Shown here: positions 446-63,954 of the stretch, piece after piece
How the letters are laid out: each line of letters opens with the position of its first letter
Position numbering within the stretch: the stretch's first letter is position 1
From: Rufibacter roseolus
GTDB taxonomy: Bacteria; Bacteroidota; Bacteroidia; Cytophagales; Hymenobacteraceae
Length of the DNA stretch: 64,000 nucleotides
Direction of reading: 5' to 3'
NCBI RefSeq assembly: GCF_017916365.1
Contig: NZ_JAFMSU010000001.1
Coordinates: 248,001 to 312,000, forward strand
Notes under the pieces: generated by a model
Databases searched by the model: none
The model's input: only the letters and a program-made list of their open reading frames with translations
Told to the model about the DNA's origin: nothing
Program-made: the position numbers and the translations under genes

Positions 446-479
446 TTTGGGCCTGTTTTTCAGAAATAAGGCTAAAAAC
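446..479. repeat. GAAAACAGGC dyad, copy 1
   Basis: Left arm TTTGGGCCTGTTTTTC and right arm GAAATAAGGCTAAAAAC around a short loop. It lies about 100 nt upstream of the transpeptidase start (minus strand) and just past the stop of the aldolase-like gene. Here the left arm is the better-kept half. Confidence 0.6.
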
Positions 480-488
480 ATATTTCTC

Positions 489-1676
489 TTAAGCCAACGC
501 CGAGCCGATCGCTTTTTTCAGCGCGCCCATGATAAACTCATTGCTTCTCTTCAGGATGGTCTCATTCACAAAGAACTTGATCACGCCCTGGCTATCAGGC
601 ATCCTGAGTTGGATCTGCTCTTTCTCTTTGAGGTAGCCCGTAAACTTGTCATAGTTCACCGGCGCGGTGATCTGGAGGTTGAAGATGTTGCTTCCGCTGG
701 GGATGGGGCTGATTTTCATGTTCCCAGACGCGTTCATCAGGGCCATCAACTGGTCACCTTTAGCACGGGATTTCTGGAGCAGGCTTTCAATATTGCCTAT
801 CTTGTCCAAGGCCACGGCGGCATATGGCCAGTTCTGGTAGATGTTACCTCCATAAATCTTGATCAGGTGCGGCATCTGGTCAATGACCGCGGCATCGCCG
901 GCCAAGATGGCGCCGCCCTTGCTGCCCAGGTACTTGTAAAGCGAGATATAGACGGTGTCAAAATAAGACGCATACTCCCGGATGGGCACCCCCGAATACG
1001 CCGAGGCCAGGTGCAAACGGGCGCCATCCAGGTGCAGTTTGATGCCGTTCTCCCGGCAATACCCCGATATCTTTTTGATCTCCTCCAGCGAGAAAACCTG
1101 CCCATCGGCCCTTCTTACCGGGTTCTCAATGGAAACAGCCCCAATGCCGCTCTGGAAAACTTCCCCTTTTTGGTGGTAGGCGATGGACTCTTTCAGATCA
1201 GCCAGGCTGAACTCTCCTTTACCCGGCGCCAGCGGTACCAACCGCTTGCTGTGCACGGTTTGAGCGGCATCGGCTTCGTCGCGGTAGAGGTGGCTCGTTT
1301 CCTGCACAAAGATTTTGCTCTTGCCTTCGCTCAGCACCCGCAGTGCCAGGTTATTGGCCATGGTCCCCGAGGGCATGAAGATGGCTTTCTGTTTTCCGGT
1401 CAGTTTCGCGAATTCAGCCTCTAAACGGGAGACCGCGCCGCCTTTGGCGTAAGTATCCGGGGTATCGGGGTACTTCTCTGCAATTGCCTGTAGTTCCCGG
1501 GCGTACTCCAGCGGCGAGGTCATGGCGCCATCGGTCACGAAGTTGATGCTTTCCTCTTTTTTGGCGTAACCGGCTAACTCCGCGGAGGCGGACAGTCCGG
1601 AGGGCAGCAGGAAAGGAATCGTTGCCAAACTGGAGGTTTTCAGAAAATCACGCCTCCCTTTTATCTTCTTGGCCAT
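489..1676 (-). CDS. Tat-exported threonine aldolase/beta-eliminating lyase family PLP enzyme
   Basis: A 395-residue fold-type I PLP enzyme related to low-specificity L-threonine aldolases, which cleave beta-hydroxy amino acids to glycine and an aldehyde. Visible family features are FMPSGTMANNLALRVL (about residue 105), HLDGARLHLASAYSG (about 220) with the Asp that contacts the pyridine nitrogen, and ISLYKYLGSKGGAILAGD (about 250) holding the probable Schiff-base lysine. Unusually for this mainly cytosolic family, the N-terminus reads KGRRDFLKTSS followed by a hydrophobic stretch, a good twin-arginine signal. Folding with its cofactor before Tat export would make it periplasmic. Substrate unknown. 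The gene stands alone between the transpeptidase and the M20 peptidases. Confidence 0.82.
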   Translation of the reverse strand: MAKKIKGRRDFLKTSSLATIPFLLPSGLSASAELAGYAKKEESINFVTDGAMTSPLEYARELQAIAEKYPDTPDTYAKGGAVSRLEAEFAKLTGKQKAIFMPSGTMANNLALRVLSEGKSKIFVQETSHLYRDEADAAQTVHSKRLVPLAPGKGEFSLADLKESIAYHQKGEVFQSGIGAVSIENPVRRADGQVFSLEEIKKISGYCRENGIKLHLDGARLHLASAYSGVPIREYASYFDTVYISLYKYLGSKGGAILAGDAAVIDQMPHLIKIYGGNIYQNWPYAAVALDKIGNIESLLQKSRAKGDQLMALMNASGNMKISPIPSGSNIFNLQITAPVNYDKFTGYLKEKEQIQLRMPDSQGVIKFFVNETILKRSNEFIMGALKKAIGSALA

Positions 1677-1918
1677 AACTATTGTCTAAAGATGTGTAAT
1701 CTTCCCCAATATAAAGGACTCTGTTTGATTTCTTGCCCATCATGGGCGGGTGATGCTTCCACAAATGGCAGGAGGCCTTTTAAGGCAAGTATCCAAGGCA
1801 GCGAATTCGGAGAACGGGCTCACACGGGTAGCTACTGTAACAAGCAGAGCCATCGGTGCTTTTAGATTTACCGTTTTCTGGCTCCTTTTTGCTTTATTTG
1901 GCAAAACAGATTTCGCGC

Positions 1919-3445
1919 ATGAAGTTCAGCATCACCGGCACCCTCGGTTTACTTTTCCTTTGCCTAGCACCTTCGCTGCAGGCGCAGACCATTCCGGCAT
2001 ACGTGGGCAAGAACGACCGGAGAATCATGGAAGAGTACATCCGGTTTCTCTCCATCCCCAACGTTTCTTCAGACACCCTTAACATCCGGAAGAACGCCGC
2101 TTTTATCCAGGAGATGATGAGTAGCCGGGGCATCAAGGCCGAGTTGCTGAACGGCACCACCCCGGGCGTGACCCCGGCGGTTTTTGGCGAGATCAAGACG
2201 CCCGGCGCTACCAAGACCATCGGGTTTTACGCGCACTATGACGGGCAGCCGGTGAACCCTAAACAGTGGTACGCGGGCGTAGAGCCCTTCAAGCCGGTGC
2301 TCATCACCGCCCCGCTGGAAAGTGGCGGCAAGATCATGGGTCCCTACAAGCCCGGCGAGGCCGTGAACCCCGAGTGGCGTATTCTGGGCCGCGGCTCCGC
2401 CGATGACAAAGCCGGTGTCATGGCTATCCTCAATGCCTACGAGGCGCTGGCCAAGACAGGCAAACGTCTGAATGCCAACATCAAATTCCTGTTTGAGGGC
2501 GAAGAGGAATTAGGCTCCATCCATCTGGATGAGATTTTCCGGCAGCACAAAGCCAAACTGCAGGCCGATCTCTGGATCATCATCGATGCGCCCCGGCACG
2601 TCTCCGGCCGGAAAACCATTGTGTATGGCGTGCGCGGCGATGTGAACATGCATCTCACCGTCTACGGCGCCAAACGCCCGCTGCACAGCGGCAACTACGG
2701 CAACTGGTCCCCTAATCCGGCTTTGAAGCTGGCCCAACTGCTGGCTTCCATGAAAGACGACAAAGGCCAGGTACTGGTGAAAGGTTTCTACGATGATGTC
2801 ACGCCGCTCACCGCCACCGAGCAGAAAGCCCTGTCCCAAATCCCCGATCAGGATGCCCAACTGAAAAAAGAACTCGGCATCCACTTCCCCGAGCGCCCAA
2901 ACCAATCCCTGGCCGAGGGCATCATGCAACCCACGCTCAACATCAACGGCCTGCAGAGCGCCAACGTAGGTCCTATGGCCAGCAACGTGATTCCCACCAA
3001 AGCCGATGCCGTTTTAGACCTGCGTTTGGTAAAAGGCAACGATTACCGGAGACAGGCAGAAAAGGTGATCTCCCACATAAAAAGTCAGGGCTTTCAGGTC
3101 ATCGACCGGGAACCCACCGAGGAGGACCGCCGGCAATACCCCAACCTCATCAAGGTCACCGTAGAACACGGCTACAACGCCCAGCGCACGCCCATGGACC
3201 TGCCCATTGCCAGGAGCATCCAGGCGGCGGTGCAGTCCACGGTCAAGGAGCCGCTGGTGTTGATCCCATCCATGGGCGGAAGCCTGCCGCTGTACCTCTT
3301 TGAGGAGATCCTGGGCACCAAGGTCATCACCGTACCCATCGTGAATTATGACAACAACCAGCACGCCGAGAACGAGAATGTGCGCATCCAGTACCTCTGG
3401 GAAGGCATAGAAACCATCGCCGCAATCATGGGCGCCCGTTTCTAG
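1919..3445 (+). CDS. Secreted M20 family metallopeptidase (dipeptidase-like)
   Basis: A 508-residue protein. The ATG at 1919 is chosen because it directly begins a signal peptide (MKFSITGTLGLLFLCLAPSL, then QAQ); the open frame reaches back to 1856 but those codons add nothing recognisable. M20 zinc-peptidase motifs are present: GFYAHYDGQPV with the first metal His and Asp, GRGSADDKAGVMA with the bridging Asp, and KFLFEGEEELGS with the catalytic and metal-binding Glu pair. A dimerisation/lid domain follows (KRPLHSGNYGNW). The family removes amino acids or acyl groups from dipeptides and related substrates. A second M20 gene follows after about 105 bp, suggesting a peptide-scavenging pair in the periplasm. 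Confidence 0.9.
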   Translation: MKFSITGTLGLLFLCLAPSLQAQTIPAYVGKNDRRIMEEYIRFLSIPNVSSDTLNIRKNAAFIQEMMSSRGIKAELLNGTTPGVTPAVFGEIKTPGATKTIGFYAHYDGQPVNPKQWYAGVEPFKPVLITAPLESGGKIMGPYKPGEAVNPEWRILGRGSADDKAGVMAILNAYEALAKTGKRLNANIKFLFEGEEELGSIHLDEIFRQHKAKLQADLWIIIDAPRHVSGRKTIVYGVRGDVNMHLTVYGAKRPLHSGNYGNWSPNPALKLAQLLASMKDDKGQVLVKGFYDDVTPLTATEQKALSQIPDQDAQLKKELGIHFPERPNQSLAEGIMQPTLNINGLQSANVGPMASNVIPTKADAVLDLRLVKGNDYRRQAEKVISHIKSQGFQVIDREPTEEDRRQYPNLIKVTVEHGYNAQRTPMDLPIARSIQAAVQSTVKEPLVLIPSMGGSLPLYLFEEILGTKVITVPIVNYDNNQHAENENVRIQYLWEGIETIAAIMGARF

Positions 3446-3550
3446 CCTGTAGCTTGTACTTGCCTTTTGGCCGCTGTATCTTTATTTACGCTCTGCAATG
3501 CGCGAGTGGCTGCAACTAAACTTTGAATTTCGGGCTAGCCCGATAACCTT

Positions 3551-4879
3551 ATGAAAAGACATTTCCTCCGCGGGCTGCTGCCTGCCTCTCTCGCTATCTG
3601 CCTGACTTCATCGGCTTTCGCCCAGACCACTACCCCTGAGAAACCTATTCCGGTGGACAAGCGCTACGAGAACGAGATAAAAGCCCTGGCCAAAAATGCG
3701 GCGGTGAAGCAGGCTTTCAAGGTGATCATGGATTTGGAGCCGCAGACGAACCAGGACCTCATCACCCTCACCGAGATTCCGGCGCCGCCTTTCAAAGAGG
3801 AAGTACGCGGCAGGAAGTACGCCGAGATGCTGCGGGCCGCCGGCGCAGACTCGGTTTGGATTGATGAAGTGGGCAACGTGCTTTCGCTTAGAAAAGGGAA
3901 AAACGGCCAGAAAACGGTAGTCATGGAGGCGCACCTGGACACGGTTTTCCCCGAGGGCACCGATGTAAAAGTGCGGCAGAACGGAGACACCTTGCGGGCC
4001 CCTGGCATTGCGGATGATACCCGCGGCCTGGCCATGGTACTGCAGGTCTTGAAGACGCTGGAGAAAACCGGCATTGAAACCGAGGCCAATGTGCTGTTCA
4101 TCGGGACCGTAGGTGAGGAAGGCCTGGGCGACCTGCGGGGCGTTAAGCACCTGTTTTCAGAAAAAGGGCCTAAAAACATAGATTCCTACATCGCCGTGGA
4201 CGGCACCGGCCTGGGAACGGTCACCAACCGCGGACTGGGCTCGCACCGTTACCGCATCACCTTCAAAGGTCCCGGCGGACACTCCTCCGGGGCTTTCGGG
4301 CTGGTGAATCCCCACAACGCCTTGGGCAGGGCCATCCATTACTTTGCGGTAGACGCCGATAAATACACGAAAGAAGGCATCAGGGCTACTTACAACGTGG
4401 GCGTGATTGGCGGAGGCACCTCGGTGAACTCTATTCCGTTTGAATCCTGGATGGAGGTGGACATGCGCTCTGAGAGCCCTGAGAGGGTGGCAGGTCTGGA
4501 CAAGCTTTTGCAGGCTGCCGTGCAGCGAGCGCTGCAGGAAGAAAACCAGATGAAGCGCCTCGGGGCAGACCTCAAAGTAGACGTGAAACTGATCGGCGAC
4601 CGTCCGGCGGGCGGCATGGAACCCACCGTAGCCCTGGCCCAACGCGCCCTGGCCGCCACCCGCCTCCTGGGCACCGAACCCACCTTGCGCTTCGGCTCTA
4701 CCAACTCCAATATCCCGTTCTCCAAAGGCGTTCCGGCCGTAACCATCGGGAGCGGCGGTACCGGCGGCGGGGCACACGCGCTGGAGGAATGGTTTGTGCC
4801 GAAGAGCACGTATCTGGGCACCCAACGCGCCCTGCTCCTGCTTCTGGCAGAAGCGGGGATGGCCAAAGGAAAAAAGTAG
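3551..4879 (+). CDS. Secreted M20/M25/M40 family metallopeptidase (peptidase T-like)
   Basis: A 442-residue protein with a signal peptide ending SSAFAQ. The metal motifs are MEAHLDTVFPEGTDV, APGIADDTRGLAMVL and GTVGEEGLGDLRG, in the usual M20 order. The lid domain contains GPGGHSSGAFG, and a late GSGGTGGGAHALEEW segment supplies the last His/Glu ligands. The pattern is nearer to peptidase T-like aminopeptidases than to the upstream dipeptidase-like neighbour, so the two are not a recent duplication. It probably trims small peptides in the periplasm. Confidence 0.9.
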   Translation: MKRHFLRGLLPASLAICLTSSAFAQTTTPEKPIPVDKRYENEIKALAKNAAVKQAFKVIMDLEPQTNQDLITLTEIPAPPFKEEVRGRKYAEMLRAAGADSVWIDEVGNVLSLRKGKNGQKTVVMEAHLDTVFPEGTDVKVRQNGDTLRAPGIADDTRGLAMVLQVLKTLEKTGIETEANVLFIGTVGEEGLGDLRGVKHLFSEKGPKNIDSYIAVDGTGLGTVTNRGLGSHRYRITFKGPGGHSSGAFGLVNPHNALGRAIHYFAVDADKYTKEGIRATYNVGVIGGGTSVNSIPFESWMEVDMRSESPERVAGLDKLLQAAVQRALQEENQMKRLGADLKVDVKLIGDRPAGGMEPTVALAQRALAATRLLGTEPTLRFGSTNSNIPFSKGVPAVTIGSGGTGGGAHALEEWFVPKSTYLGTQRALLLLLAEAGMAKGKK

Positions 4880-4909
4880 CCATTGGGTAAAAAGCGGCAG
4901 AGGGCCAAC

Positions 4910-5359
4910 CTACATCAACTTGCTCAGCACAAAGTTAGTGTTCTTAATAAAGGTCACGCCCTCGCGCTCTTCCAGCTCAAAGCCTTTGGTTTCCTCTTGC
5001 TCCTTGGCTAGTTTTTTGGCTTTCTGCTTTTCATGATACTTCTTAAGGAGGGCAGTCGTCTCCCGGAGCCTCTTCTTCCTAAGCTCATCATAGTATTCCA
5101 GATAGAACAGTACCTGCAGAAAGGTAAGGGCCCTTATAAGCATACCCGCTGGGTGAATTATCTTCCTGGAGAAAAGATATAGCCCACCCTCCCTTTCCAG
5201 CACTGCCCCCTCGCCTAGGTATCTCTGGTAGAGCAAACTGGTGTAACTGGAGGCTTCATTTGGGTCTGCACCCTCTTTCAAGAAAATCAAGGATTCATTT
5301 TTTTTGAATTGCCTGTTGCAGGCCATGACGCGGAGAGGAAGAGGGTAGGGTTTATTCAT
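4910..5359 (-). CDS. Hypothetical charged protein
   Basis: A 149-residue protein I do not recognise. It has no signal peptide. The middle contains a hydrophobic patch (PAGMLIRALTFLQVLFYLEY) followed by a strongly charged Lys/Glu-rich stretch from about residue 90 to 130 that should form a long helix or coiled coil (DELRKKRLRETTALLKKYHE and on). It converges with the M20 peptidase gene with 30 bp between the stops. Frame integrity over 150 codons and absence of a better frame on the other strand support it as real; function unknown. Confidence 0.6.
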   Translation of the reverse strand: MNKPYPLPLRVMACNRQFKKNESLIFLKEGADPNEASSYTSLLYQRYLGEGAVLEREGGLYLFSRKIIHPAGMLIRALTFLQVLFYLEYYDELRKKRLRETTALLKKYHEKQKAKKLAKEQEETKGFELEEREGVTFIKNTNFVLSKLM

Positions 5360-5506
5360 TTGATTCTTAGTTGAATTTCAGGAATAGCGTTACTTCCACG
5401 CCTTAAGTATTCCGGAGGCAGTGTAAAGCTGGTGGTTATGCACTTGTAGGAGCAGAAAATTTCAGATTCAGCTTAAACTTATCGTTATCCGTAGGGAAAG
5501 GAGGAT

Positions 5507-5514
5507 TATATTTG
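5507..5514 (+). promoter_or_regulatory. -7 box TATATTTG
   Basis: Exact match to the Bacteroidetes -7 consensus TAnnTTTG, 33 bp before the ATG at 5547. I see no clear TTTG at the -33 position. Confidence 0.5.
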
Positions 5515-5546
5515 TCAGTTACTTACAAGCTTAAACACTCTTATTA

Positions 5547-5963
5547 ATGGCAACAGTTTACTTCCAGAACCATGTAGTTACTATCACTTTCGAGGAGGAG
5601 TTGCAGCTAGGCACGGCTGTATGGTCTGGTTTTTTAAACAGCCAGGAGTTCCGGGAAGCTATCACAAACTGCATTGAGTTAATAGAGGGACGCAAGTTGT
5701 TAAGATGGCTCGGCGATAATAGACAGATGAAAGCCATCCGGCCGGTAGACCAGGAGTGGTTTGTAGAGCACATTATGCCCCGATTGCAACAGTCTGCTTT
5801 AAGGCGCAATGCCGTGTTGGTATCTGAAGATTTTTTTAACCGCACGGCGGTAGAACAGATCTACAGAAGGGCCGAAGGCCAGGGCGAAATGACCACAAAG
5901 GAGTTTTCTAGTAAGATTACGGCTTTGGCCTGGCTGAAAGAACCTATCAATACACCCGCTTAG
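5547..5963 (+). CDS. SpoIIAA/STAS-like small protein, paralogue 1
   Basis: A 138-residue protein sharing one architecture with four others at 28.7, 32.5, 33.0 and 33.7 kb. Shared elements are YF or YYQS-type start, a V/I-rich beta hairpin with LGTAVWSGFLNSQEFREA, the signature RWLGDNRQMKAI, DQEWFVEHIMPRL, then SEDFFNRTAVEQIYRRAEG and a final KITALAWL helix. The overall pattern resembles SpoIIAA-like/STAS-SEC14 domain proteins common in Cytophagales; this assignment rests on pattern recognition. The family has no established catalytic role and is likely a ligand- or partner-binding signalling domain. This copy stands apart from the island holding the other four. Confidence 0.7.
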   Translation: MATVYFQNHVVTITFEEELQLGTAVWSGFLNSQEFREAITNCIELIEGRKLLRWLGDNRQMKAIRPVDQEWFVEHIMPRLQQSALRRNAVLVSEDFFNRTAVEQIYRRAEGQGEMTTKEFSSKITALAWLKEPINTPA

Positions 5964-7276: not shown

Positions 7277-7284
7277 ATCTGAGG

Positions 7285-7357
<73 letters not shown>

Positions 7358-10456: not shown

Positions 10457-10492
10457 GTTTGGGGGCTGTTTTGGAAAAAGCAGCCCCCAAAC
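10457..10492. terminator. GAAAACAGGC dyad, near-perfect hairpin copy after hemW
   Basis: GTTTGGGGGCTG (10457-10468) pairs exactly with CAGCCCCCAAAC (10481-10492), with TTTT..AAAA inside the loop. It lies 10 bp past the hemW stop, so it probably terminates hemW despite a modest T-run. Confidence 0.65.
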
Positions 10493-11334: not shown

Positions 11335-11390
11335 ATCCTCTGTTTTAGGGCTATCTTCGCAAAAGATACCTTAAAACAGAGGATATTTTT
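11335..11390 (+). terminator. Rho-independent terminator of the lipoprotein gene
   Basis: ATCCTCTGTTTTA (11335-11347) pairs exactly with TAAAACAGAGGAT (11372-11384); a small inner hairpin ATCTT/AAGAT sits in the loop, and ATTTTT follows. Confidence 0.88.
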
Positions 11391-12670: not shown

Positions 12671-12708
12671 CGTTTCAGGCTTGAATTATGAAAAACAGGC
12701 CCCAAACG
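12671..12708. repeat. GAAAACAGGC dyad, copy upstream of 12738 gene
   Basis: Left arm CGTTTCAGGCTTGA, right arm AAAAACAGGCCCCAAACG; ends 29 bp before the next ATG. The right half is the conserved one. Confidence 0.65.
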
Positions 12709-14935: not shown

Positions 14936-14942
14936 CTGCTGA

Positions 14943-14978
14943 TTTAAGGCTGTTTTCCCAAAAACAGGCGGAAAAGCC
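14943..14978. repeat. GAAAACAGGC dyad, copy upstream of pentapeptide gene
   Basis: TTTAAGGCTGTTTTCCC and AAAAACAGGCGGAAAAGCC; it starts 8 bp past the previous stop and ends 19 bp before the next ATG. Confidence 0.65.
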
Positions 14979-15620: not shown

Positions 15621-15653
15621 TACCGGCATTTTCTCCAGAACAGGTCTTTACCG
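15621..15653. repeat. GAAAACAGGC dyad, degenerate copy upstream of LytTR gene
   Basis: TACCGGCATTTTCTCC and AGAACAGGTCTTTACCG, ending 12 bp before the LytTR ATG. Confidence 0.45.
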
Positions 15654-18025: not shown

Positions 18026-18058
18026 CCGCAGAAGGAGCCACGATGCTCCTTTTTGCGG
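18026..18058 (+). terminator. Terminator downstream of the EreA/ChaN-like gene
   Basis: Outer CCGCA/TGCGG and inner AAGGAGC (18032-18038)/GCTCCTT (18045-18051) arms with a 6-nt loop; TTTT lies within the descending side. Confidence 0.75.
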
Positions 18059-18091
18059 TTTTAGCCTTATTTTAGTAAAACAAGGCTAAAA
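18059..18091. repeat. GAAAACAGGC dyad, hairpin copy upstream of the 2H phosphoesterase
   Basis: TTTTAGCCTT (18059-18068) pairs exactly with AAGGCTAAAA (18082-18091) around an inner TTTT/AAAA. It abuts a separate terminator and ends 6 bp before the next ATG, so it is not needed for termination. Confidence 0.7.
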
Positions 18092-18097
18092 GGAAGG

Positions 18098-18796: not shown

Positions 18797-18817
18797 TTTC
18801 TTTTCGGCCGCTTTCCG

Positions 18818-18846
18818 CGTATTTTAGGGAAAACAGGTCTAAAACG
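18818..18846. repeat. GAAAACAGGC dyad, half-copy upstream of cyclase
   Basis: CGTATTTTAGG then GAAAACAGGTCTAAAACG, ending only 6 bp before the cyclase ATG; the left arm is shortened. Confidence 0.6.
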
Positions 18847-20040: not shown

Positions 20041-20120
20041 AAAGCCTTACTTCCCAGTGGCTACCATCATATTTTTAAATACAAGATTTCAGCCCATTTT
20101 TTGTAAAACACTTGAAAAAG

Positions 20121-20860: not shown

Positions 20861-20889
20861 CAGCTTACGATATTTTAAAAATTGAACCG

Positions 20890-20921
20890 CAAAAGTACGG
20901 ACAGTCAAGCTAATATCCAAA
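20890..20921 (-). promoter_or_regulatory. rplU-rpmA promoter (TTTG-N20-TACTTTTG)
   Basis: On the minus strand, -33 TTTG (20918-20921) and -7 TACTTTTG (20890-20897) are separated by exactly 20 nt, a full match to the Bacteroidetes consensus. Transcription would start about 25 nt before the rplU ATG. Confidence 0.8.
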
Positions 20922-20997
20922 CAAGCCCCTATTATTTCAGCCTGATTTTTACCGATACTCCGCTGGTTTATAGGCGGTTGTGAGTTATGCACCAAGA

Positions 20998-21060
20998 TGT
21001 GGATAACTTTAGTGGATAAACATAATGTGTAATGATACTCAATGAGTTACGAGTGGATAA
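20998..21060. promoter_or_regulatory. Cluster of DnaA-box-like sites, left side of the rplU-nrdB gap
   Basis: TGTGGATAA at 20998-21006 is a perfect DnaA box; AGTGGATAA at 21011-21019 and 21052-21060 each differ by one base. All point the same way. They lie just outside the rplU promoter in the 1-kb gap between divergent highly expressed operons. Confidence 0.5.
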
Positions 21061-21670
21061 AGACAAGAAAAATGTTGGCCACCCAGAAAAGATGGCTAGA
21101 TTGGGGTACTTCTGACCAGTAAAAGTGGGCGAACTCCCGGCCCTGAAGCATAGATGAAAGTAAAAAACTTCTGGGCTAATATCAAGAGAAACAGCAGGTT
21201 TGTTTTCCCACACCATCTCTCCAGCCTCTCAGCCCAATTCTCTTTTAAATTGTCGCTATTTAAACAATTGCCTCCTCCTTCTCAATCTTGAACGAAGCAG
21301 GCTTTGAGCGCCTGAACAAATCCGCAATCACTCTCCAGCTTTCGTGCATCCATCATTGGTGCATTCCTTTCCTCAAATTTTAAATCAAACTATTTCGCTG
21401 GGCAGAAAACAGCGAGAACAAACCCCTGCCTTCATCAGCTCGTTTTCCCCTGGTTTTAGAGCGACTCACAGCCTGACTAGAACCTAGAAAATCCTGCTTA
21501 AAAGGTACTTCTACCCACTAATGATAACCTTGCCCGTTTACCTTCCAAAATCAGTTACTATCCTTTAAGATACCGCTTACCAACCCATATAATAAAGCCT
21601 ATATTTAAGGTTTCTAATTTTTATAAAAGCACAACAAGCTGATTTACAATATGTTAAAAGTGCATTACAA

Positions 21671-21701
21671 TGTGGATAACCGCTGTATAAGAAATGGATA
21701 A
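21671..21701. promoter_or_regulatory. DnaA-box-like sites upstream of nrdB
   Basis: Perfect TGTGGATAA at 21671-21679 and AATGGATAA at 21693-21701, in AT-rich sequence 40-70 bp upstream of the nrdB -7 box. Between the two clusters (21061-21670) I see AT-rich runs but no gene or hairpin of note. Confidence 0.5.
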
Positions 21702-21740
21702 ATTCAACTGTTCTAATCGGGCAAACCACGTATTTGTCCC

Positions 21741-21748
21741 TATATTTG
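21741..21748 (+). promoter_or_regulatory. nrdB -7 box TATATTTG
   Basis: Exact TAnnTTTG match; transcription from it would begin near 21755, leaving a leader of about 115 nt before the ATG at 21869. The -33 position has no TTTG. Confidence 0.5.
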
Positions 21749-21868
21749 AAATCTCAAGCCGGTACAATTGCTCCTAAACCCAATGGTTCAGAAGCTGCCC
21801 TGGCCGGGGAGAAACGCCGTTGCGGCGGCGTCTCGTTAATTATTTTAGAGCAACAAACCGTTTTAGCT

Positions 21869-22828: not shown

Positions 22829-22853
22829 TTATCACCCCAGACAGCCCTAAAGC

Positions 22854-22889
22854 GCTTTGGGGCTGTTTTTCCAAAAACGGGCCCAAAGC
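22854..22889. repeat. GAAAACAGGC dyad between nrdB and nrdA
   Basis: GCTTTGGGGCTGTTTTT and AAAAACGGGCCCAAAGC form a near-perfect hairpin 25 bp past the nrdB stop. It may attenuate read-through into nrdA. Confidence 0.7.
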
Positions 22890-23014
22890 ATCCGGCAATC
22901 GGTTGGAGGTGGGGCTCTCAAGTAAATTCAAGCCAAAAATATGCTCCGGCGCAAAAGCGCATGGGAGAGAAATATCTGGATGGTACGTCATCCGTCACCT
23001 ATTAGTGTAAGCGT

Positions 23015-25396: not shown

Positions 25397-25419
25397 TCCT
25401 TAGTTTTGCTTAGAAATAG

Positions 25420-25449
25420 AAAAAGGAGGCCCGGAACGGCCTCCTTTTT
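25420..25449 (+). terminator. Terminator after nrdA
   Basis: AAAAAGGAGGCC and GGCCTCCTTTTT pair exactly around CGGAAC, 23 bp past the nrdA stop. Confidence 0.93.
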
Positions 25450-25511
25450 GTTTGATTATACCTCTTCTGATTCTAAGAAACCACTACCTTAGATTCTACA
25501 TTCTCTTATAC

Positions 25512-26315
25512 ATGAAATCTCTTCGTACTCTAGTTTTCTCTTCCTTGGCTATTGTTCAACTCTGTATTTCCTGCGGCCCAAACAACGAAGAAGAATACTA
25601 CCCAAATGGAAAGATTAAGATGAAAGTTGAGTTGAAAGATGGCAAGCGCCATGGAGTTGCGTTGAAGTATGACTCCATTGGAAACTTGCAGATAAAGTCC
25701 CACTGGGTTAATGGTGTAGAAAGCGGAAAAGCCTTTCTCTTTTACCCAAGTGGCAAAGTAGAGCAAGAGACTACACTTAAAAACGGGGACTCCCATGGAC
25801 AAGTGAAAGGCTATGCAGAGAACGGTAAGCTAGATTATATTGCTACCTACTGTGAGGGCAAGTTATGTGGAGATGAAATCAAATATTACTACGGTACTGG
25901 CATAAAAGCTGAACTTAACCGCTACGATAAAACTGGCAACCAATTCTATGCTGAAAGATATGATACTACAGGCACAAGGGAAGTAGCCTATTATCTTCCT
26001 GACCTATTAGGCAGAAAATCACCTTTGAAACTAGGGCAAGAGCACACCTTTACAATTGAATTTGCAGAGCCTATAAGAGGAAAGATTTATGCTGTTGTAG
26101 GTGAATCAGACAAATACAGCAATCAGAGACCTAGGTTCAGCAAGATTATAGATACACTTTATTCTAAGGATAACAGAAGGTTTATACACAAATTTGTTCC
26201 TCAAAAGCTTGGCATGAATTATTACGGCGCCATAGTCTACCATGAGCCGCTCAAGGAAGATTCCATTTGGGTTAATGGTACTTCTGTTAAATATGCTTTT
26301 GAAGTAGTGGAGTAA
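25512..26315 (+). CDS. MORN/YwqK-like repeat lipoprotein
   Basis: A 267-residue lipoprotein; the start at 25512 opens the signal peptide and the lipobox is QLCISC. Residues about 30-145 hold four to five YwqK-like MORN repeats of the form YYPNGKIK..VELKDGKRHG, FYPSGKVEQETTLKNGDSHG and YAENGKLDYIATYCEGKLCG. The C-terminal half is a different domain of unknown type (LKLGQEHTFTIEFAEP). Such proteins are often labelled antitoxins in databases on weak grounds. Its codon use is more AT-rich than the nrd genes. Confidence 0.8.
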   Translation: MKSLRTLVFSSLAIVQLCISCGPNNEEEYYPNGKIKMKVELKDGKRHGVALKYDSIGNLQIKSHWVNGVESGKAFLFYPSGKVEQETTLKNGDSHGQVKGYAENGKLDYIATYCEGKLCGDEIKYYYGTGIKAELNRYDKTGNQFYAERYDTTGTREVAYYLPDLLGRKSPLKLGQEHTFTIEFAEPIRGKIYAVVGESDKYSNQRPRFSKIIDTLYSKDNRRFIHKFVPQKLGMNYYGAIVYHEPLKEDSIWVNGTSVKYAFEVVE

Positions 26316-26322
26316 TAATCAC

Positions 26323-26363
26323 TCTGTTTTCGTCTTCCATTCTTAGAATGAAGCCGAAAACAG
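26323..26363. terminator. Hairpin after the MORN lipoprotein gene
   Basis: TCTGTTTTCG and CGAAAACAGA outer arms with an inner ATTC/GAAT stem, 7 bp past the stop; no long T-run follows on the + strand. Confidence 0.6.
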
Positions 26364-26389
26364 AACAGGATCGTAATTTTATTTATTGA

Positions 26390-26404
26390 CTTATTTTAAA
26401 TAAG
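26390..26404. promoter_or_regulatory. Palindrome upstream of the toxin-antitoxin pair, candidate operator
   Basis: CTTATTT-T-AAATAAG, perfect 7-bp arms ending 6 bp before the antitoxin ATG, where autoregulating antitoxins usually bind. Confidence 0.5.
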
Positions 26405-26410
26405 ACTGCT

Positions 26411-26644
26411 ATGCAAACCATACGGCTACGGGTGAATGAGAAAGTGTACCAGAACCTGATGTGGTTTCTGCGCAAGTTCACCAAAGAAGAACTGGAGATA
26501 ATTGAGGAGGATGATACCTTCACCGCTACCCAAAAAGAACTGAGGCAAGATTTAACCCAACTAGAAAACGGGGAGGCAGACTTTATAGACCTAGATCAAT
26601 TAGACCAAGAGCTTGAAAATACCCTCAAGCGGTATGAAGCTTAA
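26411..26644 (+). CDS. Antitoxin of a ParE/RelE-type toxin-antitoxin pair
   Basis: A 77-residue, strongly acidic protein starting MQTIRLRVNEKVYQNLMWFL, which looks like a short beta strand plus helix suited to ribbon-helix-helix-like DNA binding. It continues with an acidic helix (LENGEADFIDLDQLDQELEN) typical of the toxin-wrapping tail. It overlaps the downstream toxin gene by 11 nt, giving translational coupling. A small palindrome lies directly upstream. Family assignment rests mainly on this arrangement. Confidence 0.75.
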   Translation: MQTIRLRVNEKVYQNLMWFLRKFTKEELEIIEEDDTFTATQKELRQDLTQLENGEADFIDLDQLDQELENTLKRYEA

Positions 26645-27524: not shown

Positions 27525-27572
27525 ACTCCCGCTTTGGGTCTGTTTTCATAAAAACAGGCTCAAAGCGGGAGT
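27525..27572. terminator. GAAAACAGGC dyad, extended hairpin between convergent genes
   Basis: ACTCCCGCTTTGGG...(27525 on) pairs with ...CTCAAAGCGGGAGT (to 27572) through a stem of about 20 bp interrupted once; TCTCTTTTT follows on the + strand. It separates the DUF2199 gene from a convergent lipoprotein gene. Confidence 0.85.
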
Positions 27573-28551: not shown

Positions 28552-28589
28552 CGTTTCAAGCCCGATCTCATAAAAACAGGCCCTAAATG
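28552..28589. repeat. GAAAACAGGC dyad, copy upstream of the 28.4-kb lipoprotein
   Basis: CGTTTCAAGCCCGATC, then AAAAACAGGCCCTAAATG; about 150 nt upstream of the minus-strand lipoprotein start. Right half better kept. Confidence 0.65.
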
Positions 28590-32420: not shown

Positions 32421-32457
32421 CGTTTTGGAGCCTGAATCCATAAAACAGGCCCAAAAC
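32421..32457. repeat. GAAAACAGGC dyad, copy upstream of DUF421 gene
   Basis: CGTTTTGGAGCCTG, then ATAAAACAGGCCCAAAAC; about 115 nt upstream of the DUF421 start. Both arms are well kept. Confidence 0.7.
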
Positions 32458-35123: not shown

Positions 35124-35158
35124 AAAAGGAGAACCCATTACCGTTTGGGGCTCCTTTT
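35124..35158 (+). terminator. Terminator between the two Hsp20 genes
   Basis: AAAAGGAG (35124-35131) and CTCCTTTT (35151-35158) with an inner CCC/GGG pair, 12 bp past the stop. A half-copy of the dyad (CCGGTCTAAAACGG) follows at 35166-35179. Confidence 0.75.
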
Positions 35159-35257
35159 CTCAAACCCGGTCTAAAACGGCCCTTGTGAACTGATTGAAGC
35201 TATTACAAAAGGCAGCCTGGGTCTGCCAATGTTTCACAATTTAAAGAACTTAAAGCT

Positions 35258-38684: not shown

Positions 38685-38738
38685 TCCCAAAGGATTTATC
38701 CCCAGGAAGAAGTAACCTAGGCCCCAAACCATAGGAAC

Positions 38739-38776
38739 CGTTTAGCGGGTATTTTTCCAAAATGGACGGTGAAACA
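38739..38776. repeat. GAAAACAGGC dyad, degenerate copy upstream of the hydrolase
   Basis: CGTTTAGCGGGTATTTTTCC, then AAAATGGACGGTGAAACA, ending 42 bp before the ATG at 38819. Confidence 0.5.
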
Positions 38777-38818
38777 GTAATGTTTGGTCAGAACCCCTAA
38801 GAACGCTTACCTTACAGT

Positions 38819-40473: not shown

Positions 40474-40510
40474 CGTATTAAGGCTGATTTATGCAGAATG
40501 GCCCTAAAAC
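40474..40510. repeat. GAAAACAGGC dyad, degenerate copy past pfkB
   Basis: CGTATTAAGGCTGATTT, then AGAATGGCCCTAAAACC; 20 bp past the pfkB stop. Confidence 0.5.
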
Positions 40511-41535: not shown

Positions 41536-41572
41536 GTTTTGGTCCCCATTCTTGAAAAACAGGTTCTAAACG
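41536..41572. repeat. GAAAACAGGC dyad between divergent pfkB and sigma genes
   Basis: GTTTTGGTCCCCATTC, then TTGAAAAACAGGTTCTAAACG. The flanking genes diverge, so this copy cannot be a terminator for either. Confidence 0.65.
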
Positions 41573-43687: not shown

Positions 43688-43711
43688 CAGATTAGTTAGA
43701 ATAGACAAATC

Positions 43712-43747
43712 GTTTGGGGCTGATTTACAGAAATCAGCCCCAAAACT
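43712..43747. terminator. GAAAACAGGC dyad, perfect hairpin between convergent genes
   Basis: TTTGGGGCTGATTT (43713-43726), ACAG, AAATCAGCCCCAAA (43731-43744); 24 bp past one stop and 9 bp past the nagA stop. Confidence 0.8.
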
Positions 43748-44919: not shown

Positions 44920-44956
44920 ATTTTAGGGTAAATTTCAGGAAAACAGCCCGAAAACA
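44920..44956. repeat. GAAAACAGGC dyad, first of two copies upstream of nagA
   Basis: ATTTTAGGGTAAATTTCAGG, then AAAACAGCCCGAAAACA; 14 bp upstream of the nagA start. Right half clearly better. Confidence 0.65.
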
Positions 44957-44970: not shown

Positions 44971-45007
44971 TGTTTTTCGCCCTTTTACAGAAATAAGCCT
45001 CAAAACG
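44971..45007. repeat. GAAAACAGGC dyad, second of two tandem copies upstream of nagA
   Basis: TGTTTTTCGCCCTTTTAC, then AGAAATAAGCCTCAAAACG, 14 bp beyond the first copy; the only tandem pair seen. Confidence 0.6.
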
Positions 45008-47783: not shown

Positions 47784-47819
47784 GTTTCAGGGCTATTTTC
47801 CAGGAAACGGCGCTAAAAC
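47784..47819. repeat. GAAAACAGGC dyad, copy upstream of the TonB receptor
   Basis: GTTTCAGGGCTATTTTCC, then AGGAAACGGCGCTAAAAC; about 135 nt upstream of the receptor start. Confidence 0.65.
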
Positions 47820-48350: not shown

Positions 48351-48388
48351 GTTTAGGGACCATTTTCTGGGAAACGGCCCCTAAACGG
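48351..48388. repeat. GAAAACAGGC dyad past the DUF4097 operon
   Basis: GTTTAGGGACCATTTTC, then GGGAAACGGCCCCTAAACGG; 4 bp past the stop at 48392 (minus), where it may help terminate the operon. Confidence 0.65.
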
Positions 48389-51523: not shown

Positions 51524-51674
51524 CTGAGTCTTGAGTTCGGAGTCCTGAGTTAGGTGGAAAGTGGCTGTTTTAAGTCGATTTTAAGGAAAACAGGGCAGAA
51601 ACATCAAGACGGATGAGGGGGTAGTTCAAAGTAGCAAAAAATGACTCAGGACTCAAGACTCAGGACTCAGGACT
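51524..51674. repeat. CTGAGTCTTGAGTC repeat cluster
   Basis: CTGAGTCTTGAGTTCGGAG with TCCTGAGT (51524-51550) faces an inverted run GACTCAGGACTCAAGACTC with AGGACTCAGGACT (51643-51674). The run overlaps the last codon of the transporter gene. A related cluster is at 61323-61355. Confidence 0.8.
51567..51602. repeat. GAAAACAGGC dyad, copy upstream of the sigma gene
   Basis: GTTTTAAGTCGATTTTAAGG, then AAAACAGGGCAGAAAC; it lies between the two arms of the CTGAGTC cluster, 110 nt upstream of the sigma start. Right half better. Confidence 0.65.
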
Positions 51675-52605: not shown

Positions 52606-52632
52606 CAGAATACCGGAAAATGGGGGTACTGC

Positions 52633-52667
52633 TTTCTGCCTCTTTTTTGAAAAACAGCCTCAGAACA
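52633..52667. repeat. GAAAACAGGC dyad, copy upstream of the transporter
   Basis: TTTCTGCCTCTTTTTTG, then AAAAACAGCCTCAGAAC; 27 bp upstream of the transporter start and 3 bp past the previous gene's stop. Confidence 0.6.
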
Positions 52668-56154: not shown

Positions 56155-56191
56155 GTTTTAAGGGTGATTTAGGGGAAATGGGCTTAGAACG
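56155..56191. repeat. GAAAACAGGC dyad, copy upstream of the acylase
   Basis: GTTTTAAGGGTGATTTAGG, then GGAAATGGGCTTAGAACG; about 95 nt upstream of the acylase start. Confidence 0.6.
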
Positions 56192-56685: not shown

Positions 56686-56709
56686 GGCTTTCAATTAGGT
56701 GAATCCATA

Positions 56710-57150: not shown

Positions 57151-57280
57151 ACTATAGTTTCGCTTTGGTTGGTTAAGAGATTAGAGACAATTGAGAGCCT
57201 TTGGTTTAATGGTACATCAAAAAAGATGAACTATCTGGAAGGCAATCAGGCATATGGAACGGTTTGTAAAAAAATTGCCT

Positions 57281-57319
57281 TAATTTTAAGGATGTTTTCT
57301 GGAAACCAAGCCAAAAACG
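57281..57319. repeat. GAAAACAGGC dyad between divergent Spy-like and M16 genes
   Basis: TAATTTTAAGGATGTTTTC, then TGGAAACCAAGCCAAAAACG; ends 46 bp before the M16 start. The divergent position rules out a terminator role. Confidence 0.65.
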
Positions 57320-57365
57320 CGCCATACTTCCCAAACGACCCTTTTTATTTTTTAACGCTTTTTGA

Positions 57366-58691: not shown

Positions 58692-58724
58692 GCCTTGTTT
58701 TCTTTTCCTTACTCACAGAATTCC

Positions 58725-60794: not shown

Positions 60795-60817
60795 GGTTCT
60801 TCAGTCATTTTACAGTT

Positions 60818-60867
60818 CGTCCCCGTTTAGAGGCTCTTTTGATGAAAAGAGCCTCTAAACGGGGACG
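60818..60867. terminator. GAAAACAGGC dyad, perfect 23-bp terminator after the M16 operon
   Basis: CGTCCCCGTTTAGAGGCTC (from 60818, through TTTT) pairs exactly with the arm 60845-60867; loop GATG; followed by ATTTTTTC. The most perfect copy of the family. Confidence 0.95.
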
Positions 60868-60969
60868 ATTTTTTCAGGCTTTCGGGTACAAGGGGGATTT
60901 TGGACCTTGGCTTCTTTAAGGGAAAAATAAGCTAGAAACAGAGGTTGTCAAGGAGCCGCTATCGGCGCA

Positions 60970-61246
60970 GACGCTCGCAGGTCTGAAAGACGCTGCGAGG
61001 TCATTTGAGCGGGCGCAGTTATCGTGGACGACCATAATATTTTTTGCTTTTGCTGATGAGAGGCTGAAATATTTTGCCTTGGGATGGTAGCCTTTAGACG
61101 GTAGGGAGCCATGAGCTGGTAGTTGATCTTAATTAGTGAGACCTCTCGCTACCGCGAGTTTGCAGCTCATGTCCACGTATTGCTGTTTCTGTTTTGCTGT
61201 GGCCAGCTTAAATGACCTCGCAGCGTCCGGAGGTCCTGCGAGCGTC
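60970..61246. repeat. Inverted pair of GACGCTCGCAGG repeats
   Basis: 60970-61006 (GACGCTCGCAGGTCTG, AAAGACGCTGCGAGGTCATTT within) is inverted at 61210-61246 (AAATGACCTCGCAGCGTCC, then GGAGGTCCTGCGAGCGTC). Between them lies a degenerate CGCTGGCGCGAGC-like block at 61146-61178. The 60868-61358 gap contains no gene. Confidence 0.75.
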
Positions 61247-61273
61247 TGTGCCAACCGCCGCTCCCGGGCACTC

Positions 61274-61310
61274 CATTTTAGGCCTGATTTCCTGAAAACA
61301 AGCCCGAAAC
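61274..61310. repeat. GAAAACAGGC dyad past the DUF58 gene
   Basis: CATTTTAGGCCTGATTTCC, then TGAAAACAAGCCCGAAAC; about 50 bp past the DUF58 stop on the minus strand. Confidence 0.65.
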
Positions 61311-61322
61311 AAAGTTTTCCCC

Positions 61323-61355
61323 AACTCAGAACTCTGGACTCAAGACTCAGAACTC
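61323..61355. repeat. CTGAGTCTTGAGTC repeat, second locus
   Basis: AACTCAGAACTCTGGACTC then AAGACTCAGAACTC, ending 4 bp from the DUF58 stop, the same position relative to a gene end as at 51643-51674. Confidence 0.75.
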
Positions 61356-61358
61356 CCC

Positions 61359-62243
61359 TTACACTCTTGCCCGGTTGATCAGGAATGCGCGCAGGGCTTT
61401 GTCCAGCGGCTCATGCAGGTGGAAGCGCTCGTAGTGGATCTGCTTTTTACGGGTATCGGTTTCCAGAGAGCGAAGCCACTCCTGCAGGCGTTGGAGGTAC
61501 TCGGTGCGTTGGCCCTCAGTACTCACCTGCACAGTCTGGCCTGTCTCCAGATCCTGAAACGCGAGCTGGCCTTGGTACGTGAACTCCATCTCATTCTTGC
61601 CCATGAGATGGAATAGCAACGTGTCCTTCTCTAAGGCTCCAATCTTACGCAACGTTTCCGAAATCTCAGAGGTCTGCTCGTACATGTCGGTGACCAACAC
61701 GGTAATCTCTTTCTGGCGCTTTTTCGCGAAAACGGGCGCTAAACGGTCTGGTGGTGGGAATGCACCGTTGGGTTTTACCTGCTCTAACTGATGAAAGAAC
61801 CGCTGCAAATGCTGGCTAGACTGCTGCGGCGCCAACTGCACCAATTGCTCTTCCTGTAACACAAACAGCCCCACGGCATCGCCTTGCTGCACCGCCAGGT
61901 ACGCGAGCGAGGCCACTAAATAGCGGGCATAGTCCAGTTTGGTAAGCGTCCCGTCTTGGTGTCCCATAGAACCACTGGCATCCACCACAAACCGCACCGC
62001 CACACTGCTGTCCACCTCAGATTCCCGGATATAGTACCTATCTGAGCGCGCGAACATCTTCCAGTCCAGTTGCCGCAAATCATCGCCAGGTTGGTAGCTG
62101 CGGTACTGGCTGAACTCTATGCCCGCTCCCCGCCTTATGCTCTGGTTGTGTCCCAGCATAAAGCCATCTACCACCGTCTTGGCAATCAGGCGCAGGTCTT
62201 TGATAGCAGCGAAGGTCTGGGGATTGAGGAGGCGATGGGGCAT
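61359..62243 (-). CDS. DUF58 domain protein (vWA-like)
   Basis: A 294-residue cytosolic protein. The DUF58 signature GIEFSQYRSYQPGDDLRQLD followed by WKMFARSDRYYIRESE is complete. Downstream is a vWA-like MIDAS (RFVVDASGSMGHQDG) and VTDMYEQTSE. DUF58 proteins pair with MoxR ATPases in chaperone-like systems for envelope or metal-enzyme assembly. Here the MoxR gene lies 600 bp upstream on the same strand, separated by a DUF559 gene and repeats. Confidence 0.9.
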   Translation of the reverse strand: MPHRLLNPQTFAAIKDLRLIAKTVVDGFMLGHNQSIRRGAGIEFSQYRSYQPGDDLRQLDWKMFARSDRYYIRESEVDSSVAVRFVVDASGSMGHQDGTLTKLDYARYLVASLAYLAVQQGDAVGLFVLQEEQLVQLAPQQSSQHLQRFFHQLEQVKPNGAFPPPDRLAPVFAKKRQKEITVLVTDMYEQTSEISETLRKIGALEKDTLLFHLMGKNEMEFTYQGQLAFQDLETGQTVQVSTEGQRTEYLQRLQEWLRSLETDTRKKQIHYERFHLHEPLDKALRAFLINRARV

Positions 62244-62273
62244 GATATATTTTAATTTATTAAGGAGCTTCTT

Positions 62274-62422
62274 CGTCCCCCTTTGAAGGGGGTAGGGGGA
62301 TGATTACTCGTGCAGGTCATGGCGTTGTCGATAATAACTTAGCATTTGCATTTGGCATTGATCAGGAGCAGTTCTTAGTTGACACGCCCTTGTCATCCCC
62401 CTACCCCCTTCAAAGGGGGACG
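62274..62422. repeat. Paired inverted CCCCCTTTGAAGGGGG arms
   Basis: The arm at 62274-62303 (CGTCCCCCTTTGAAGGGGG, then TAGGGGGATGA) is inverted at 62392-62422, with about 88 bp of unrelated sequence between. Same arms as at 47984/48097 but with a different interior. Confidence 0.88.
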
Positions 62423-62460
62423 AAATGCGTGCACAGCAAAGAACTGGTTTTTAAAGGTGC

Positions 62461-62835
62461 TTAGTTATTCTTTTCGCACTTTTCTGCAATACACGTTTCC
62501 AAGGTTCGCTGCACGTTGGGTAAATCGTTCATCACCTCTTCATCGGTGAATCTTAGTACATTATAGCCTAACTCTGCCAATTCTTTATCTCTTACCGCAT
62601 CTTCTTCGGTTTTGAAATTGTGCGAGTATCCGTCTACTTCAATAATCAATTTCAACTCCTTACACAGGAAATCAGCGATGTAGTTGCCTATAGACCGTTG
62701 TCGCAAGAAGGAGTATCCCAGTTTCTTTTTACTCAACAATTCACACCACAGTCTAATCTCTGCTTTCGTGGAAGCTGCCCGATGTGCCTTCGCGAGAGGC
62801 TTCAGTTTCTTGTTGTAGTGGTGATTGTCCTCCAT
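62461..62835 (-). CDS. DUF559 endonuclease-like protein
   Basis: A 124-residue protein of the DUF559 family, which has a very short patch repair (Vsr)-like restriction endonuclease fold. Visible are KAEIRLWCELLSKKKLGYSF, LRQRSIGNYIADFLCKELKL, IIEVDGYSH with the metal-binding Asp/Glu, and KELAELGYNVLRFTDEEVM. DUF559 genes are often found beside repeats and in variable places; function is unproven. It sits between moxR and the DUF58 gene, next to the paired inverted arms, and is more AT-rich than both neighbours. Confidence 0.88.
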   Translation of the reverse strand: MEDNHHYNKKLKPLAKAHRAASTKAEIRLWCELLSKKKLGYSFLRQRSIGNYIADFLCKELKLIIEVDGYSHNFKTEEDAVRDKELAELGYNVLRFTDEEVMNDLPNVQRTLETCIAEKCEKNN

Positions 62836-62852
62836 TTCAAGAACAGTTTCAC

Positions 62853-63848
62853 CTATATTAAAACCTCCCTCGGCATCTCCACACCTTTCAGCAGTTCTTC
62901 CACTACTTTGTCTGTAGTGATATTGTCTGCCTCGGCGGTGAAGTTGACTAGTACACGGTGGCGCAGTACTGGATAGGCCATGGCCTGCAGATCAGGCAAT
63001 GTTACCGCGAAACGGCCTTGTAAAAGGGCTCGCGCTTTAGCGGTGAGAATGAGCGCTTGACCGGCCCGCGGACCGGCTCCCCAGCGTACGAACTCCTGTA
63101 TAAAAGGCACCGGACTTTCAGCAGGACGGGTGGCACGGACTACGCGGGCAACATAGGAGACCAAATCATCTGAAATAGTGACTTCGCGCACCAAACTTTG
63201 GAGTGCCAGGATCTCAGGTCCGGATAGAATGGATTGTACCGTCTCCCGTTTGCCGCCGGTAGTGTTTTTCAAAACCGAGATTTCCTCCAGTTCTGTGGGG
63301 TACTTTATTTTGATGTACAGCAGGAACCGGTCTAACTGAGCCTCAGGCAACGGGTACGTACCGCTTTGCTCAATGGGATTTTGCGTAGCAAGCAGGAAGA
63401 AAGGGCGCGGCAGCGGGTAGGTTTTACCGGCGTAGGTCACTTCAAACTCCTGCATGGCCTCCAGCAGCGCTGCTTGGGTTTTGGGCGGTGTCCGGTTGAT
63501 TTCATCGGCCAGCACGATGCTGGCGAAGATGGGACCTTCATTGAACTGGAAAAAACGCTTGCCCGTAGTGTGGTCTTCCTCCAGGACTTCGGTGCCCAGA
63601 ATATCGGTAGGCATAAGGTCTGGCGTGAACTGGATGCGGCGGAACGGCAAATCCATGGCACTGGCCAGGGTTCGCACCAGCAGGGTTTTTGCCAGGCCGG
63701 GTACGCCTTCCAGGAGTCCGTGGCCACCGGCTAACAGGGTGATCAGCACCTCATCCAGCACTTCCTGCTGGCCTACAATGATTTTACTTATTTCCTGCCG
63801 AAGCGCCGGCAGTTTGCTTAACAGTTGGGTTACGTCTTGTGGGGTCAC
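62853..63848 (-). CDS. MoxR family AAA+ ATPase
   Basis: A 331-residue AAA+ protein. Walker A is [16 protein letters not shown] (about residue 43), Walker [21 protein letters not shown] (about 110), sensor 1 [20 protein letters not shown], and the arginine finger region [13 protein letters not shown]. The C-terminal lid ends in [20 protein letters not shown]. MoxR ATPases act as chaperones with vWA/DUF58 partners; here the DUF58 gene lies downstream on the same strand, displaced by a DUF559 gene. Confidence 0.94.
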
Positions 63849-63915
63849 GTGGGGCGGATGCTAAACGATACTACTTGAACCAGTAAGTAAGCGATTGTTC
63901 TTGAATTTGCCTTTC

Positions 63916-63954
63916 CGTTTTTGGTTTGTTTTCAGGAAATCAGGGCAAAAAAGG
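63916..63954. repeat. GAAAACAGGC dyad, copy upstream of moxR
   Basis: CGTTTTTGGTTTGTTTTC, then AGGAAATCAGGGCAAAAAAGG; 67 nt upstream of the moxR start. Confidence 0.65.

Follow-up and report, generated by a model that had tools for sequence, protein, structure and literature searches.

A 36-bp intergenic dyad of Rufibacter as a candidate recognition site for a symmetric DNA-binding protein at gene ends

The repetitive extragenic palindromic (REP) elements and bacterial interspersed mosaic elements (BIMEs) are extragenic palindromes of 20–40 bp that are present in many copies, are specific to lineages and often lie at transcript ends. The present study concerns a 36-bp dyad of Rufibacter roseolus, noticed in an earlier note on 64,000 nucleotides of its genome (assembly GCF_017916365.1, contig NZ_JAFMSU010000001.1, positions 248,001 to 312,000; this whole stretch is called the window below). 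REP and BIME elements and their REP-associated tyrosine transposases (RAYTs) are the subject of two reports (PMC2817692, PMC3733652, the opening of the abstracts), and CGTC repeats are reported from five phyla, Bacteroidetes included (PMC3733652, abstract opening and one passage). Like REP elements, the Rufibacter site is a high-copy extragenic palindrome, and they are the closest known system in abundance and place. However, the Rufibacter site is without a link to Y1_Tnp, shows hairpin covariation only in a subset of copies, mostly retains its positions, has columns selected singly, and has changed its spelling at shared places.

DNA uptake sequences (DUS) are single words that occur about once per 1–2 kb and overlap terminators. 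It is reported that related species of Neisseriaceae use DUS dialects with different spellings (PMC3630211, abstract opening). DUS are the closest known system in dialect behaviour, whereas the Rufibacter site is a fixed two-arm dyad of 36 bp, mostly intergenic and with few lone halves. The matS and Noc sites are chromosome-organising palindromes, two-fold symmetric and bound by one protein each, in tens to about a hundred copies. The Rufibacter site shares their symmetry and their spread over the chromosome but differs in its copy number, about 2,500 by extrapolation, and in its 3'-end placement. The LacI roadblock is the case of a single operator. In transcriptional roadblocks of this type, a protein holds tightly to the DNA and obstructs RNA polymerase (PMC4132739, abstract opening); the mode of action that we propose is the same, but in Rufibacter it would concern a genome-wide set of sites at gene ends. 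No description of the Rufibacter site was found in the literature searched, which comprised the openings of abstracts and one passage of PMC3733652. We suggest, with about as much belief as doubt, that each copy is a double-stranded recognition site of one putative genus-specific symmetric DNA-binding protein, which in each half would contact a pair of GTTTT boxes 11 bp apart.

The dyad and its place at gene ends

The consensus unit was GTTTTrGGsCTGTTTT-N4-AAAACAGsCCyAAAAC, that is, a half-site, a spacer and the reverse complement of the half-site. The half-site matrix was seeded from the consensus of the earlier note and refined first on the window and afterwards on a 464-kb stretch of its contig (the window plus L001-L020, G000:C1:248001-712000, where G000 is the genome of the window itself). 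At a score of at least 22, 217 sites were found in these 464 kb and none in five dinucleotide shuffles, which rules out a chance origin of the dyad. The spacer was 4 nt long in 186 sites, 3 nt in 26 and of another length in 5, and the information per site was 31 bits under the 464-kb model. Intergenic DNA makes up 21% of the region and held 200 of the 217 sites, as judged with our own codon-usage gene finder, which missed some genes. An Rfam scan of the window at the gathering score returned only a tRNA and no known RNA family at the sites.

The signal resides in the fixed dyad and not in the single word GGCCTGTTTT, which alone, with one mismatch allowed, was mildly enriched (19 against a mean of 8). 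At a score of at least 14 there were 378 half hits in the 464 kb, 41 of them outside dyads (18 intergenic, 23 genic), against 13–21 half hits in shuffled sequence. Sites were present on all three large contigs of the genome by a strict pattern and by a sequence model. The reading of the 5.5-Mb genome covered the 464 kb plus samples, and extrapolation from 464 kb to 5.5 Mb would give about 2,500 sites; the model search of the genome scored 150 of 9,543 candidates and is not usable as a count. Samples of 20 kb from smaller contigs of 102, 235 and 155 kb, namely L045 (G000:C4), L049 (G009:C2) and L051 (G013:C2), held 0, 1 and 1 sites, and six samples of the same length from large contigs held 5–14 each. 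Newly acquired DNA without sites is perhaps the reason for the low counts.

These results agree with the earlier note in its count of about 30 copies, one per 2 kb (31 sites at a score of at least 22, one per 2.06 kb), and in its view that the copies are not unrelated terminators, an explanation that the fixed geometry and the 217 sites against none in shuffles lead us to reject. The two outcomes that it had named as fatal to its proposal, a density equal to that of shuffled DNA and a lack of recurrence elsewhere in the genome, were not observed. Its spacer of 2–8 nt must be replaced by one of 4 and sometimes 3 nt. Sixteen of its 19 coordinates are sites at the threshold; 53034 and 38103 scored 16.3 and 17.4 under the window-only model, and no site was found at 15621. 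Fifteen further sites start at 444, 1391, 4142, 11342, 18810, 20085, 28553, 35143, 44972, 47784, 51567, 52631, 56155, 61709 and 63917. Its statement that all copies lie between genes holds for 27 of the 31, while 4 lie in predicted genes, one of these a weak open reading frame (ORF), on rough gene calls. The window sites are as follows (the strand is given as "." throughout).

444..479 (.), gap 4, score 38.2; in a weak predicted ORF (ORF score 6.6)
1391..1426 (.), gap 4, score 25.4; within a well-scoring gene
4142..4177 (.), gap 4, score 30.9; within a well-scoring gene
10457..10492 (.), gap 4, score 35.6; centre 28 bp past a stop; near-perfect palindrome, 15/16 pairs
11342..11377 (.), gap 4, score 26.8; part of a longer hairpin of terminator-like form
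12672..12707 (.), gap 4, score 33.0; site found in all five relatives compared
14941..14976 (.), gap 4, score 35.5; centre 23 bp past a stop
18058..18092 (.), gap 3, score 32.9
18810..18845 (.), gap 4, score 34.2; site found in all five relatives compared and in G014
20085..20120 (.), gap 4, score 22.8
22854..22889 (.), gap 4, score 39.3; site in nine relatives compared, in G013 and G014 in their own spellings
27531..27566 (.), gap 4, score 37.0; in a hairpin stem that resembles an intrinsic terminator
28553..28588 (.), gap 4, score 31.1
32423..32457 (.), gap 3, score 28.4
35143..35177 (.), gap 3, score 27.4
38740..38775 (.), gap 4, score 24.8; site in nine relatives compared; perfect palindrome in G001
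40475..40510 (.), gap 4, score 30.0
41536..41571 (.), gap 4, score 29.8; divergent gap
43711..43746 (.), gap 4, score 34.4; convergent gap
44920..44955 (.), gap 4, score 34.7
44972..45006 (.), gap 3, score 30.4
47784..47819 (.), gap 4, score 37.9
48351..48386 (.), gap 4, score 32.7; centre 23 bp past a stop
51567..51602 (.), gap 4, score 34.1
52631..52666 (.), gap 4, score 31.3; centre 22 bp past a stop
56155..56190 (.), gap 4, score 30.6
57283..57318 (.), gap 4, score 33.1; divergent gap
60825..60860 (.), gap 4, score 38.1; perfect palindrome in a longer inverted repeat, then a T run
61275..61310 (.), gap 4, score 39.5
61709..61744 (.), gap 4, score 28.7; within a well-scoring gene
63917..63952 (.), gap 4, score 32.8

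Site density was tabulated by site centre for gaps of 40–1,000 bp. It reached 5–11 per kb at 18–100 bp past a stop codon and was 0–1.4 per kb farther out. This stop-proximal peak was retained in tandem gaps whose next start lies 100 bp or farther off, and it was seen likewise in G001 and G013. Divergent gaps contained 19 of the 200 intergenic sites, none of them less than 60 bp from a start. An RNA leader element, which the earlier note had offered as one possibility, is rejected on this peak at gene ends and the sparse occupation of divergent, promoter-bearing gaps. Hairpins ending at -7..+2 of the site occurred on the side of the approaching gene at 6–11% per position, compared with 1–5% on the other side or in shuffled flanks.

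Conservation and spelling within the genus

Motif matches were found in all 16 genomes of the genus (75–1,894 each), as the earlier suggestion of a genus-wide element had it, while of 23 other genomes one had a single match. Among named records, the one nearest to a protein of the window is from Rufibacter, at 96% identity. Five further genera of the family, sampled with 400 kb in all, gave no site in the matrix search at score 22. The orthology comparison was made on gaps of at most 800 bp, in which the relative had a site in 69 of 80 comparisons when the R. roseolus gap had one and in 0 of 72 when it had none. In the comparisons with G013 and G014, the relative had a site in 7 of 8 site-bearing gaps and in 3 of 11 siteless ones, and some longer gaps, such as 20861-21868 and 25397-26431 (over 800 bp and left out of the comparison), have a site only in the relative. 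Because of these gains, the positions of the sites are seen to change slowly rather than to be fixed.

Sites picked by score are biased toward conserved columns; to lessen this bias, the column profile was taken from pairwise alignments in the coordinates of the own genome, on gaps of at most 700 bp with 45–58 comparisons per column. The eight T/A core columns were 0.81–0.93 identical, the other box columns, arm middles and spacer 0.41–0.84, and the flanks 0.36–0.72. On these alignments, the T/A core columns are under selection. In the divergent gap at 57151-57365 of the window, the site and its near flanks were unusually conserved in G000, G004, G003 and partly G009; no site was found in this gap in G015.

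Seven other species had densities of 0.40–0.57 per kb and a sharpness of 12–20 bits per half. G013 had 135 sites in 320 kb, with a spacing of 4 in 133 of them and 46 bits of information per site, and is spelled CTCATTT in place of CTGTTTT. C (0.89) and A (0.74) stand in its columns 11 and 12, positions that are mostly G and T in the own genome, G001 and the other profiled species. With three mismatches allowed, the G013 spelling had 1,594 matches in G013 and 1–126 in the 15 other genus genomes; G013 also had 1,207 matches to the first pattern, the two spellings differing by four letters. Because the two patterns overlap in their matches, the claim of a G013 dialect rests on the column frequencies. 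At shared places, for example 22829-23014 and 38685-38818, the sites present in G013 and G014 follow the spelling of their own genome.

The putative protein and competing explanations

The sites have the two-fold symmetry, fixed spacing, base-specific columns and largely separately evolving arms of a symmetric operator. Because of these features, together with the few lone halves and the spelling shared across the genome, a symmetric DNA-binding protein is the reading that we prefer, and a protein-binding site of fixed geometry appears to fit better than a RAYT-driven REP element or an RNA leader. The putative protein would be dimeric or a dimer of dimers and would read both halves of the dyad. 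Binding at the sites is inferred from the sequence pattern; the placement at gene ends suggests, more weakly, that the bound protein would therefore act as a two-sided boundary in the zone where transcription stops. Our best guess is a roadblock or insulator at gene ends. A tightly bound protein could serve as a fail-safe against read-through, opposing transcription and spreading supercoils, backing up the ordinary terminators, and the many bits of information in each site would suit a protein that must stay bound for long and not just find its place.

A bolder form of this proposal is that Rufibacter marks the 3' ends of most of its transcription units with docking sites, about 2,500 in all, for a single dedicated protein, that the specificity of the protein and thousands of sites changed together, and that species and the sister genus have their own dialects of a bacterial gene-end insulator code. 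We offer it tentatively and lean against it as a whole. If a protein does sit at thousands of gene ends, this would be a bacterial layer of transcript-end or domain-boundary control that is absent from the literature searched. The spelling change at shared places also opens the question of how a DNA-binding specificity can change if about 2,000 sites have to change with it. For finding the protein, the sites offer a strong handle, as a fixed 36-bp bait and through spacing mutants.

Several of our results weigh against a dedicated binding protein acting at gene ends. No candidate for the binder was found among the genes beside crowded gaps, which were examined, or in the HU family, which was searched. 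Lone halves were two to three times the shuffled number. The hairpin excess was small over -20..+3 as a whole (34%, compared with 23% on the leaving side and 28% in shuffled flanks). At convergent ends, strict terminators had a frequency of 0.52, compared with 0.36–0.61 in genera without this site, and they were as frequent with a site (40/76) as without (17/34). Since terminator frequency is independent of the site, these counts give no evidence of a role in termination, and a roadblock that replaces terminators was tested and found unsupported on the same frequencies. The 17 of the 217 sites that lie in predicted genes are awkward for a roadblock, and two genic places with a site in L046 have counterparts in L050, a fragment from another species (the three sites at L046 3133, 4412 and 5625 match L050 3022, 4300 and 5513, two of them well inside genes). 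Arm pairing was tested on gap-4 sites, with other gaps left out; all 186 of these together paired above shuffled arms (11.4 vs 10.8 of 18, z ~6), and an alignment of the 100 best sites also covaried. Lastly, the 31–46 bits per site are far above the ~11 bits needed to find 2,500 places, and such an excess can also mean copying.

The nearest rival is a nucleoid-organising site, at which a protein would pin or bend the chromosome at intervals of about 2 kb without a direct role in transcription, the location at gene ends arising from avoidance of promoters and coding DNA. We consider it unlikely, though the genic sites, including the two that recur in another species, favour it, and the similar density in seven other species agrees with it. 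Genic sites lay somewhat farther from the intergenic ones than did randomly chosen points in genes (1,138 vs 807 bp, P 0.09), and occupation was less frequent in tandem gaps that had a further site no more than 700 bp away (34% vs 58–73%); this spacing evidence is weak, however, and may be confounded by gap length. Avoidance alone is insufficient to account for the peak at 18–100 bp past stops, since it persists when the next start is distant. HU, the nucleoid family searched, was rejected as a lineage-specific binder: 15 of the 19 family genomes had one match and four had a further weak one, without any pattern by genus.

If a RAYT (Y1) transposase had spread a REP-type element in the ancestor of the genus, and the copies were now decaying, this would explain the copy number, the 36-bp palindrome, the 3'-end preference, the restriction to the genus and the high information content, and the earlier note was right that the dyad is REP-like in abundance, size and placement. 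The excess arm pairing in a subset and the Y1_Tnp matches in 15 of the 16 genus genomes also agree with such an origin. However, the presence of Y1_Tnp, which the earlier note had proposed to look for, does not track the motif across genomes: G007 has 991 motif matches and no Y1_Tnp match, and the sister-genus genomes G017 and G018 have Y1_Tnp matches and 0 motif matches. The REP-like description is further weakened by the near lack of covariation in most copies, by retained positions with few new ones and column-selective conservation, by the variable spacer and by the spelling changed at shared places. No strong flanking tag was seen in columns pooled over both arms, a pooling that would dilute a one-sided tag. 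We regard this origin as rather improbable, rejecting it as the main reading but keeping it as a rival. The own genome has three Y1_Tnp-like genes in frames of 141–201 aa (G000:C1:1046351, C2:1523133 and C3:262559).

An RNA element, that is, a terminator or 3'-UTR (untranslated region) hairpin acting after transcription, is less probable still. The covariation between arms, a check that the earlier note had called for, was found to be strong in the 34 gap-4 sites whose stems extend by at least 2 pairs (13.9 pairs vs 11.4 expected) and nearly absent in the other 152 of the 186 (10.85 vs 10.69 expected, z 1.4; column 5 alone z 3), so the overall pairing excess is mostly due to the sites with extended stems. 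Stems extended by at least 4 pairs were found at 28 of the 217 sites, and in tandem orientation G-U pairs exceeded A-C (185 vs 146), both of which count in favour of an RNA element. The comparison of 54 orthologous pairs counts instead for the protein-binding reading: of 86 changes in one base of a pair, 28 were accompanied by a matching partner, with 19.3 ± 3.5 expected. Against an RNA element, the T/A columns are fixed as bases and not as pairs, and with respect to gene direction the scores of the two arms do not differ (p 0.11, 108 sites). As a class the sites do not show the stem and following U tract of an intrinsic terminator, and 36 of the 76 site-bearing convergent ends had no strict terminator, while in 8 the site sits inside one. 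The majority of copies resemble double-stranded recognition sites; about a fifth also form part of longer stems of the terminator-like kind.

A signal for self-recognition or DNA uptake, spelled differently from species to species like that of the Neisseriaceae, is rejected as very improbable: the density and dialects resemble those of DUS and the smaller-contig samples are poor in sites (0, 1 and 1 vs 5–14), but half hits are mostly paired, 200 of the 217 sites are intergenic, and the copies are degenerate and two-fold symmetric, not a single asymmetric word that is also common in genes.

The sister genus and other repeats of the family

The sister genus g2 has a site of its own, AAAACGsTAkrsTTTT-N7-AAAAGT. 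Its matches numbered hundreds in G016, about 150 in G021 and 0–3 apiece in the remaining 37 genomes; the free gap inflates these counts. A loose threshold gave 110 such sites in 140 kb of G016, compared with 21 in a single shuffled sequence; of these 110, 46 were in predicted genes and 85 had a spacing of 7. Their density, tabulated over gaps of 40–1,000 bp, was 5–9 per kb within 40 bp of stops and 1.6 in divergent gaps, and this asymmetric site had no preferred direction relative to the stop (17 vs 15).

A dyad in every genus of the family was considered and rejected, as a survey of 5-mer pairs was clear only in g1 and in G016 of g2 and weak in 80 kb of G021; the same survey found no comparable dyad in samples of G018, G019, G020, G028 and G033. 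Palindromic expectation maximisation on G017-G020 gave no clear motif.

Other repeats were seen in the relatives. In G017 (L056-L061, L076-L081), the words ATATATAA/GCCATATATAA were repeated, with 64 intergenic copies in 120 kb that were densest per kb in convergent gaps. In G022 (L082-L085), AAGTATAAA occurred 28 times in 10.7 kb of intergenic DNA, unlike G017, which bears the same genus label; it may be a promoter word. In G019, a head-to-tail run of the 7-base unit CATTGCT lies outside predicted genes near position 1940 of L072.

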